A stretch of 22,531 bases of DNA from a virus: the IMG/VR virus record IMGVR_UViG_3300042882_000135, positions 1-22,531 of that record; one strand, 5' to 3'. Each line of letters opens with the position of its first letter. Position 1 is the first letter of the stretch. Shown piece after piece: positions 1,088 through 3,528 of the stretch. A program made the position numbers and the translations under genes. A model generated the notes under the pieces. That model was given only the letters and a program-made list of their open reading frames with translations. It searched no databases and was not told the origin of the DNA.

Positions 1088-2503
1088 TTACACCGCGTAT
1101 GGGTTGACCCGCTCTTTGCGGGTATAAGCATAGTCATCATCGTCATCATAACGAGGCTCTGGGTTGATGTCTAGGAAACCCATGTCCTTCATTAACCGAA
1201 TCGCTTGCGTTGCGCTATCAACGTAGTCGTCGTGCGTCGAGTCAGGGAAGGAGCATATCTGGGATAGGAACCCTTCACACCAGTCCTTGACATAGCCCTT
1301 GCGCACGGATGACTCAGGCAACCAGACGCGCCCAGTGGCGAAGATGGAGGCGGTAATCTGGAGGCGTTGCATCTTGTCAGCCTTGCCGGGGTTGTATCCC
1401 CTCACAGGCAGGTGGGCCGCTCGTAGTTCTTGAATGAGGGAGATGCCAGCCGCCTTGTCCTCCACGAGTATCAGGTCAGGTCGCTTGGCGTCCTTGCCCT
1501 CACCGTAGCTGACGCGCCACTCGTCTAGCACCTTGGGCTTGAGCAGGGGGAACGTCAGGTGTTCAGCCCAGCAGTCGATGAGCAGGACAGACATCGGGCC
1601 ATCAAGGGGCTTAAAGACTCCCCACGTCGTCATGGCGGTCGGGTCGTTGTATTCCTTGTCACTGAAGGCGCAATCATACGACTGGACTATGAACTCAAAC
1701 TTGGGGAAGGGCTTGTCCGCTGGGTACAGCTTGAACATATCGCGCCCGACCACCTTGCCGTCTTCGAGGTCGACGAGCATACCCATGACCTCTTGCTCGT
1801 ACAGCTTGGAACCCTTGTACTGCTCCAACTGGTTGCGGAAAGTCGAGGCGAGGTTGGCCTCGTTCTCGTAGGTGCTGGCGCGGTCAATCACCACGTCGTC
1901 ACCCTCACGGCCCACCAAGTCAATGATGAGGTCTTTGGGGCGCGGTGTCGTGGTCACAATGACACGAGGTCGGTCACCCAGACGCAAGCCCATCATCATC
2001 ATGTCCCACGCCTCACCAGCGCCGAGGTACTGGAATGCCGCCAACTCGTCACACCATGCGAAGTGGAACTGCGGGCCACGCAGACGCTCGTAGGAGTCAC
2101 CTGAGATACCACGGATGATGGAGCCGTTAGACAGCTTGATTTGATGGTCTTGCTTGTTGTAGTCCACCACGAGTTCAGAGGGTATGCAGGCCAGCAGGCC
2201 AGACTGACCCTCGAAGCAAGTGAACTTGATGTCATTCGATGTGGGCGCGAGGACAAGGCAACGTGAGTTGGGGTTTGTCCATGCCCACCACCACAGCGCC
2301 TCAGCGGCGGAGCGTGTCTTGCCTGCTCCGCGCCCTGCCAGCATCATCCAGACGGTGTAGTCCATCTCCAGTGGAGGTGGTATCTGGTAGCGGTGGGCGC
2401 TGGCTACCCAAGTAGCGTGGGCGATGTATGCAATGCGGTCATGCTCGGAGCGGGCATTGAACTCCGCCTGCACTTCTGGGTCTTCGAGTATCTCAGCCAG
2501 CAC
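1088..2503 (-). CDS. terL: Terminase large subunit
   Basis: Packaging motor ATPase and nuclease of 471 residues, a normal length. The ATPase domain shows Walker A GRGAGKT (57-63), the terminase-typical RLRGPQ (140-145), Walker B HFAWCDE with acidic D152/E153, and coupling motif TTT (184-186). The C-terminal RNase H-like nuclease shows acidic D277 in QSYDCAFSD, E348/D349 in ILVEDKAAG, and a late DDYVDSATQ motif near 430. It cuts concatemers and drives DNA into the prohead together with TerS and the portal. The start is GTG at 2503, overlapping the last codons of terS (stop 2493), with GGAG about 8 bases upstream. No ATG fits without losing the N-terminal region ahead of Walker A. Family assignment is firm; the packaging strategy cannot be read from sequence alone. 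Confidence 0.96.
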   Translation of the reverse strand: MLAEILEDPEVQAEFNARSEHDRIAYIAHATWVASAHRYQIPPPLEMDYTVWMMLAGRGAGKTRSAAEALWWWAWTNPNSRCLVLAPTSNDIKFTCFEGQSGLLACIPSELVVDYNKQDHQIKLSNGSIIRGISGDSYERLRGPQFHFAWCDELAAFQYLGAGEAWDMMMMGLRLGDRPRVIVTTTPRPKDLIIDLVGREGDDVVIDRASTYENEANLASTFRNQLEQYKGSKLYEQEVMGMLVDLEDGKVVGRDMFKLYPADKPFPKFEFIVQSYDCAFSDKEYNDPTAMTTWGVFKPLDGPMSVLLIDCWAEHLTFPLLKPKVLDEWRVSYGEGKDAKRPDLILVEDKAAGISLIQELRAAHLPVRGYNPGKADKMQRLQITASIFATGRVWLPESSVRKGYVKDWCEGFLSQICSFPDSTHDDYVDSATQAIRLMKDMGFLDINPEPRYDDDDDYAYTRKERVNPYAV

Positions 2504-3080
2504 GCTTAGTCATCTCCATGTTGCGGATGACTTCAAGGAACTTGTTGGCGTTGGTGTCTTCAGTCTTGATGGCGGCTCCGCCCTCCACCCCCTCCAACGC
2601 CACACGGTCGCCATACTTGCGAGGCTTCAGCTTGGCTGACGTCCACTTACGCGCCTCAATGCGTTGCTTCTGCCACGCGAGGTAGGACTGGTCAAGGGAA
2701 GTGCGCCCATCCTTATCGGTGTACTCAGGCGGCATCTCGTCAGCGATGGCAAGGATTTCGTCAGCGTTGGTGTCAGCTTGGTCTTCGCGTGCGCGTGCGT
2801 ACATCTCGCAGAAGACGGGGAAGCGTATCAACCACCGATAAATCGTCGCGCAGTGCGGAAGGTGGTCATCACTACAGATTGAGACAAGCGACTCTCCGTG
2901 AGCGAGTCTCCAGCATACCTCTTCTGCTATCTCTTCTGTGTACTCTACTGGTCTATGAGCAGGACGTGGTATTTGCGGGGCTACAGGCTTCTTGGCAGGC
3001 GTAGTGCTACCTTGGGCTTGCGTAGTAGCCTTCGGCGTCTTGGTGGGCTTCTTAGCCCCCTTCTTGATGGTTTCTGGCAT
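2493..3080 (-). CDS. terS: Terminase small subunit
   Basis: A 195-residue protein directly upstream of and overlapping terL. After a basic, low-complexity N-terminus rich in Lys, Thr and Pro (1-40), a helix-turn-helix domain runs from about 45 to 95, including EEVCWRLAHGESL and HCATIYRWLIRFP. A helical oligomerisation region follows, containing SYLAWQKQRIEARKW and then KLKPRKYGDRV. This order and wording match the Sf6 gp1-like small terminases, which bind the packaging site and regulate TerL. The ATG at 3080 is chosen because the frame has no better start, although the ribosome site (GGGATTACGGG) is poor. The TAAAGCGAATC motif lies about 50 bases further upstream, so the mRNA may carry a short leader. 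Confidence 0.88.
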   Translation of the reverse strand: MPETIKKGAKKPTKTPKATTQAQGSTTPAKKPVAPQIPRPAHRPVEYTEEIAEEVCWRLAHGESLVSICSDDHLPHCATIYRWLIRFPVFCEMYARAREDQADTNADEILAIADEMPPEYTDKDGRTSLDQSYLAWQKQRIEARKWTSAKLKPRKYGDRVALEGVEGGAAIKTEDTNANKFLEVIRNMEMTKRAG

Positions 3081-3150: not shown

Positions 3151-3227
3151 TGTTGGTGGTCGCGGGAGTCGAACCCGCCAGTCCACCTCTGATTACGCTG
3201 GAATCGAACCAGCCCTCACCACCAACA
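3151..3227 (-). ncRNA. tRNA-like element with two T-arm hairpins
   Basis: Read on the minus strand, 77 nt are closed by a perfect 10-bp stem (TGTTGGTGGT at 3218-3227 with ACCACCAACA at 3151-3160). Inside are two perfect hairpins with the canonical T-loop: GCTGG-TTCGATT-CCAGC (3197-3213) and GCGGG-TTCGACT-CCCGC (3162-3178). Read as one tRNA, the acceptor would be GGTGGTG/GACCACC (6 of 7 pairs), with the second hairpin as T-arm. The first hairpin, however, is not a D-arm and no good anticodon stem exists between them. It is therefore either a decayed fusion of two tRNAs or a structured RNA that mimics tRNA. No encoded CCA follows in the right place. It lies between a small membrane gene and terS. 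Confidence 0.5.
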
Positions 3228-3360
3228 CGGCTGGGGACTGCGAAAGCCACGGCAGGCCGAACCCGCACAACTGACCCTCTATCGCTGTACCGAAATGGCT
3301 TGTACAGAGCCACCAATCCCCATGCGCGTTGGCCCCACTTGCGTGGAAACCGACTCGGTT
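3228..3360 (-). other. Non-coding stretch with degenerate tRNA-like sequence
   Basis: I see no gene here. On the minus strand a perfect hairpin TGGCT-CTGTACA-AGCCA (3296-3312) has the size and loop of an anticodon arm, with GTA (Tyr) in anticodon position. CCAA/TTGG just upstream could be a D-stem. Further downstream is GCGGGTTCGGCCTGC, a poor T-arm. I could not complete a matching acceptor stem, so a working tRNA-Tyr is not supported. With the neighbouring element it reads as the remains of a tRNA cluster. Confidence 0.35.
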
Positions 3361-3528
3361 CTACTTCGCTTTAGATTCGCTACACAGTCTCTTGACGTAT
3401 GCGCTGGACTCTTGTTTCATGCAATCCTCCTCGTCCAATGTGAAGTCAGGAACCCACATCCAAAACACGAGGAAAGCAATGAACATTATACCAATGACCA
3501 CCTTCTGAAGCAAGGACTCTTCCTTCAT
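3361..3528 (-). CDS. Small single-pass membrane protein
   Basis: A 55-residue frame begins at ATG 3528 behind a very strong ribosome site (GGAGGAGGTGAA) and overlaps the stop of the upstream gene as ATGA. After MKEESLLQK, residues 10-27 form one hydrophobic helix (VVIGIMFIAFLVFWMWV). A short acidic patch (DEEDC) and a C-terminal tail with a second Cys follow. Topology would be one membrane segment with a 27-residue soluble tail; two cysteines could form a disulfide if the tail is periplasmic. I do not recognise the family. A holin-like or host-envelope role is possible but not shown. Confidence 0.75.
   Translation of the reverse strand: MKEESLLQKVVIGIMFIAFLVFWMWVPDFTLDEEDCMKQESSAYVKRLCSESKAK

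Follow-up and report, generated by a model that had tools for sequence, protein, structure and literature searches.

Which RNA, if any, is encoded directly upstream of the terminase genes of this virus, and what could it do for the phage? In the window (the whole stretch of 22,531 nucleotides analysed, IMG/VR virus record IMGVR_UViG_3300042882_000135), a 10-bp closing stem encloses two perfect 5-bp hairpins with T-loop sequences at this place. An earlier note had described these stems, and the sequence confirms them; the strand, the junction type and an anticodon-like GTA hairpin given in that note had to be revised.

Fold and conservation of the double-T-arm RNA

The closing stem is formed by tgttggtggt (3151-3160) and accaccaaca (3218-3227), which pair perfectly over 10 bp, or 9 bp plus a flanking U-A pair. 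Both hairpins have 7-nt loops. The loop sequences, TTCGATT and TTCGACT, belong to the minus strand, on which the terminase genes (terS and terL) and all relatives also lie, and not to the plus strand as had been supposed. Because a third small hairpin is present at 3179-3191, the junction is four-way and cloverleaf-like rather than three-way, and this cloverleaf is the minimum-energy fold of the 75-nt RNA, termed unit Y here. The genes and the parts of Y are as follows.

1088..2503, minus strand: large terminase gene, used to find relatives; open reading frame that matches annotated large terminases in phages
2493..3080, minus strand: small terminase gene, just downstream of the array; open reading frame with a homologous protein that matches PHROG 1482, terminase small subunit
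3152..3226, minus strand: unit Y, double-T-arm tRNA-like RNA of 75 nt; family-model match and covariation in all four helices
3218..3227, minus strand: 5' strand of the Y closing stem, 9 bp (GTTGGTGGT), 10 with the preceding U; read from the sequence, covaries in homologues
3151..3160, minus strand: 3' strand of the Y closing stem (ACCACCAAC) and the following, discriminator-like A; read from the sequence
3197..3213, minus strand: T-arm 1, GCTGG-TTCGATT-CCAGC, in the position of a D-arm; compensating changes GTCGG/CCGAT and GCCGG/CCGGT in relatives
3179..3191, minus strand: mini hairpin CAG-AGGTGGA-CTG, in the position of an anticodon arm; homologue comparison, covariation and minimum-energy fold
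3162..3178, minus strand: T-arm 2, GCGGG-TTCGACT-CCCGC, in the normal T-arm position; GTGGG/CCCAC in relatives

Y shares several features with tRNA. Its T-arm 2 has a 5-bp stem and a TTCRANY loop and adjoins the acceptor-type stem with one unpaired base between the two stems; TTCGA stands in this loop in all 14 aligned sequences. The closing stem, 7 bp family-wide and 9 bp in the window, is followed by an unpaired base, an A. A D-arm with a GG loop is not found; a T-arm (TTCGATT or TTTGATT) takes its place.

Homologues were collected by a pattern scan for T-arm 1 and the following junction, and they occur in about 20 viral contigs. Two scans with T-arm patterns also gave many matches that proved to be ordinary tRNAs or coding DNA and were set aside. 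Some lie within arrays of related units (L327, L330, L344, L346 and L387), others stand alone behind a promoter-like box (L390, L391 and L396), and in L386 and L395 the closing stem is wholly different (GGCGGCTGT/ACAGCCGCC in L386). In an alignment of 14 distinct sequences including the window (A1), 95.5% of cells are paired and both sides have changed in 11 of 22 pairs; none of 500 shuffles was as good, and controls with slid partners collapsed. The search pattern fixed loop 1 and part of T-arm 1 and left the closing stem, the mini hairpin and T-arm 2 free. The covariation counts are independent evidence that Y exceeds chance. With the family model, the window reaches 77.7 bits (E=7e-18), a consistency check because the window is among the 14 training sequences. 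The stems are thus conserved in homologues, as the earlier note had asked to see, and its suggestion that two intact T-arms imply selection is borne out by compensating changes in every one of the four helices. These changes contradict its simple reading of Y as a decayed tRNA cluster. As far as sequence comparison can carry them, both the fold and the selection on it are well supported.

Most relatives have a mini hairpin of 4 bp capped by a GUGA or GCGA tetraloop of the GNRA type, and Y is therefore without an anticodon. Consistently, an anticodon arm is absent from every family member aligned. ARAGORN detected no tRNA in the window or in the Y homologues, and Rfam 15 gave nothing in the window at the gathering threshold, so that the cloverleaf with anticodon that the earlier note had named as counter-evidence was found by neither tool. 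Y as a canonical tRNA was rejected on these scores and on its anticodon-loop and D-arm positions. The best sub-threshold Rfam match of the window was the bacterial tRNA-Sec family (RF01852; minus strand, 3154-3224; E=0.19). Like tRNA-Sec, Y has a longer acceptor stem and a 5-bp T-stem, which produce the weak covariance-model match. In contrast to tRNA-Sec, Y has neither an anticodon arm nor a D-arm and scores 20.4 bits in the window and up to 25.9 bits, against a gathering threshold of 47, and this candidate was rejected as well.

The Y family model gave no further match in 300 genomes from the order of a Burkholderiales metagenome-assembled genome (MAG) that carries a phage-like array contig (L202) under stricter filters, and plasmids held no match to the Y RNA. 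A 34.5-bit match on a Burkholderiales chromosome (L397) lies inside an open frame of 175 amino acids and was discarded as chance.

A modular array of X and Y units

In the window, Y is preceded by a second structured unit, X, and the two constitute an array of one X and one Y. The features of this part are as follows.

3227..3232, minus strand: X-to-Y linker AGCCGT, conserved; array comparison
3233..3321, minus strand: unit X, 89 nt, with an 8-bp closing stem (GGGGATTG/CAGTCCCC), an H-type pseudoknot and a 3' T-loop-like stretch; the closing stem covaries over 239 units among the matches listed
3285..3313, minus strand: H-type pseudoknot in X, GTGGCT/AGCCAT and CTGTAC/GTACAG; alignment of four sequences
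3322..3333, minus strand: 5' leader of X (GCCAACGCGCAT; array consensus CCAACACGCAT); array comparison

The hairpin of anticodon-arm size with GTA that had been noticed upstream of Y is the second stem of this conserved pseudoknot, CTGTAC/GTACAG. The X of the window has family mates in L019, L116 and L162; all cells of the pseudoknot (100%) are paired in the four sequences, and two pairs are compensated in L019.

The place of the array was compared in 80 viral loci that encode a large terminase closely related to that of the window. The slot before terS is variable among them: it is empty in L002-L004, contains a true tRNA-Thr or tRNA-Met in L020, L023, L036 and L041, and contains an X-Y element in 27 of the 80 loci by strict flank matching. 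The element has the form CCAACACGCAT - X(GGGGATTG...CAGTCCCC) - AGCCGT - Y(GTTGGTG...CACCAAC) - AAC.

Scanning IMG/VR with the X-Y linker yielded at least 119 stretches, and scanning with the Y-X junction yielded 93, partly on the same contigs. At least 304 X-Y units were extracted from at least 219 oriented loci, with up to four units in tandem, and in the overall pattern X units with an 8-bp closing stem alternate with Y units with a 7-bp one. Nearly every X located through its 5' junction has a Y after it, and a Y may come first. By simple nucleotide clustering, the cores among the matches listed comprise at least 128 X families (72 singletons) and at least 100 Y families (60 singletons). 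Fifty of the 60 X families that occur at least twice among these matches have more than one Y family as a partner, indicating that the modules are shuffled. The neighbouring genes include small and large terminases, an HNH nuclease, ParB-like proteins, a Holliday-junction resolvase and others, and this diversity shows that the array is spread over unrelated phages. All array sequences are metagenomic. The database of isolated phages had no match to the flank consensus of the array, and a genome collection had five matches to the X-Y linker, with the unit confirmed in one of them, L202.

Several lines of evidence bear on whether the units act as RNA. The covariation tests of the closing stems were anchored on the linkers only. 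The X stem covaries at pairs 2-5 and 8 in the 239 units among the matches listed, and 212 of them have a U.G wobble at pair 6; since G.U is tolerated on the array strand only, this points to RNA of that strand. Among the matches listed, Y has a closing stem of exactly 7 bp: covariation at pair 7 (65 of 78, against at most 60 in shuffles) gives way to chance level at pair 8. Invariant pairs of either stem carry no weight because the search patterns fixed parts of both. ARAGORN called 42 tRNAs on array contigs among the matches listed; 38 of them are no more than 300 nt from the array, often only 5-11 nt, and every one of these 38 shares the strand of the array. Of 42 Y units that no X-Y linker precedes, 16, not all of them independent, have a -10-like box whose end lies exactly 6 nt upstream of G1; every other spacing occurs in at most seven units, and the predicted transcription start is thus G1. 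Where an array begins with X, good -10 matches cluster at 22 and 18 nt upstream of the stem.

Taken alone, Y would be a new tRNA-like family. The array is a system with universal closing stems, cores exchanged between phages and strings of units in register with true tRNA genes; no described counterpart of such a modular array was found among open-access PMC papers.

Two features of the units stand apart. In L235 and L260, all that is left of X between intact Y units is a hairpin (GGGGATTGTGCAAGTCCCC), so the core can be lost while the frame is kept. In all arrays alike, one strand, CGTGTTGGTG (3218-3232, minus strand), can pair with either the X leader (CAACACG; 3322-3333, minus strand) or the 3' strand of the Y stem (CACCAAC); this competition could mediate strand exchange during transcription or offer homology for shuffling.

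Proposed role and alternative explanations

The best explanation is that Y, a unit of a phage RNA array, is probably a tRNA-sized, anticodon-less tRNA mimic that is released in the manner of a tRNA. The acceptor-type closing stem with its discriminator-like A, the T-arm in place of the D-arm, the normal T-arm and the short hairpin replacing the anticodon arm would together form the mimic. The units of an array would be transcribed together and excised by host tRNA-processing enzymes, by RNase P at the U|G junction and then by RNase Z or exonucleases, and they would accumulate as stable RNAs unable to decode. Other Y units point the same way: some keep a full D-arm and T-arm without a usable anticodon arm, as read from their sequences. 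The anticodon arm is wholly absent in L336, 4-nt loops stand in place of the anticodon loop in L173 and L329, and L190 has a 12-nt loop there. One Y of L330, with D- and T-arms and without a 7-nt anticodon loop, passes the Rfam tRNA threshold; apart from this tRNA-like Y, Rfam 15 found only tRNAs and one int-alpA elsewhere on the array contigs. The common theme of these units appears to be the acceptor-plus-elbow half of tRNA with decoding removed. This half is recognized by RNase P, RNase Z, EF-Tu, the CCA-adding enzyme, TruB and TrmA. T-loop-like sequence occurs in 22 of 502 distinct cores among the matches listed (0.7 expected from shuffles; 4 on the reverse strand), and because most X and Y families are thus without a recognizable T-loop, the term tRNA mimic suits the Y of the window better than the array as a whole.

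As to purpose, our best guess, a tentative one, is that the units are decoys that would occupy a host protein or nuclease binding the acceptor, T-arm or elbow of tRNA, and the variety of cores would then reflect an arms race. The earlier proposal of a decoy or a processing signal for T-arm-recognizing enzymes likewise seems plausible. Decoys that cannot be cut in the anticodon would fit the setting of tRNA-cutting defences, which phage tRNAs counter (PMC10264068, PMC11555353). Human mascRNA is cut by RNase P and RNase Z via elbow mimicry, and mascRNA and menRNA resemble Y in that they keep an acceptor and a T-arm, have no usable anticodon loop and do not decode (PMC11693755). Unlike them, Y is phage-borne, lies in arrays, carries a T-arm in the D-arm position, is unrelated in sequence and would be processed only by prediction. 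A phage precedent for its surroundings also exists. Phage T4 makes stable non-tRNA RNAs (RNA C and D) among its tRNAs, on the same strand, as the array units do; the array differs from such clusters in that its core families number well over 200, its universal closing stems alternate and its modules are shuffled.

A different reading keeps the two T-loops and reverses their part: they would interdigitate and dock onto the flat elbow of a tRNA or pre-tRNA, so that Y binds tRNA rather than imitates it. Both loops have the U54-A58 signature (TTYGATT; TTCGACT) in 14 of 14 sequences, with loop 1 partly set by the search pattern, and an interdigitated T-loop pair is a known RNA device for gripping the tRNA elbow, found in the RNase P specificity domain, the L1 stalk and stem I of T-boxes (PMC4810234). 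Y shares two T-loops per RNA with these devices, and interdigitation and elbow binding are hypothetical for it. Against this reading, the two loops belong to separate arms, and the remaining Y families do not have the double-T-loop design. We consider this reading unlikely, and the same holds for the wider picture in which phages deliver interchangeable arrays of hundreds of RNA kinds through the tRNA-processing machinery and two universal closing stems, with the member in the window gripping the elbow of host tRNA or pre-tRNA. The units might instead merely mark cleavage sites that free the downstream mRNA or true tRNAs from a primary transcript. The position of arrays just before terS and other genes, the acceptor-like stems with U-1/G1 and the register with tRNAs agree with such punctuation. 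Cleavage marks would not need conserved cores of more than 200 families, complete with pseudoknots and loops specific to each family, however, and a terminator ends some arrays, which leaves this function a small probability. A cis-acting leader of the terminase mRNA, either a 5' stability hairpin or a regulator, is quite improbable. It is true that a Shine-Dalgarno sequence and a start codon follow within 120 nt in 133 of 262 arrays, that a terminator is close by in only 10 of 200 and that the inferred transcription start of Y units coming first is the paired G1, but the modules are shuffled over the unrelated downstream genes listed above, and true tRNAs come after the array in many loci.

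Short conserved inverted flanks around a variable folded core, cassette-like shuffling and frequent proximity to terminase genes recall a DNA element, either a single-strand recombination site like integron attC or a packaging site. The array contains no coding cassettes, unlike integrons, and its dominant flanks GTTGGTG and CCAACAC misfit the attC core sites RYYYAAC/GTTRRRY. The fixed U.G pair, the strict co-orientation with tRNAs and the -10 boxes at fixed spacing argue for RNA, and a DNA element is highly unlikely; an attC-like site was rejected. That Y is a functionless remnant of a tRNA cluster is hardly credible: its T-arms are recognizable and the same slot holds true tRNAs in some relatives, but all helices show compensating changes and the same fold recurs in phages with different flanks.

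Should the units be expressed, they would represent a large, almost unseen phage repertoire of structured non-coding RNAs, in which most core families would have no known relative, the sample being modest; being modular, they would correspond at the RNA level to gene cassettes. If true, anticodon-less tRNA mimics would make it possible to test directly how phages cope with defences that target tRNA, and an RNA with two T-loops would lend itself naturally to binding the tRNA elbow.

Neighbouring elements and a phage in culture

The slot before terS contains a different conserved element of 107-117 nt in L001, L011, L013, L022, L032, L038, L075 and L080. It starts with ATTGGTCTAA.../ATAGGTTTAA..., ends with ...GGTATACCTATGCCC and looks like another structured RNA. 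Upstream of the array, at about 3335-3380 on the minus strand of the window and in many terminase relatives, repeats GCGAATC.AAAGCGAA and a palindrome AAACCGAGTCGGTTT are found, and GCGAATCG follows the array in many terminase relatives; these flanking sequences are possible regulator sites. On the plus strand, an open frame of 73 amino acids at 3153-3374 (MVVAGVEPASPP...) is the antisense translation of the T-arms and not a gene. Such translations are a familiar kind of spurious protein.

A stretch of about 870 unannotated bases lies between the large terminase and the next gene of Xanthomonas phage Elanor (L398 1027-1900; ON189045.1 3830-4703). It contains a tRNA-Met; inspection by eye adds several tRNA-like or hairpin units with other closing stems, and one of these units has a T-arm resembling that of the RNA in the window. 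The stretch has relatives in other Xanthomonas and Stenotrophomonas phages and appears to be a cultivable counterpart of the array.
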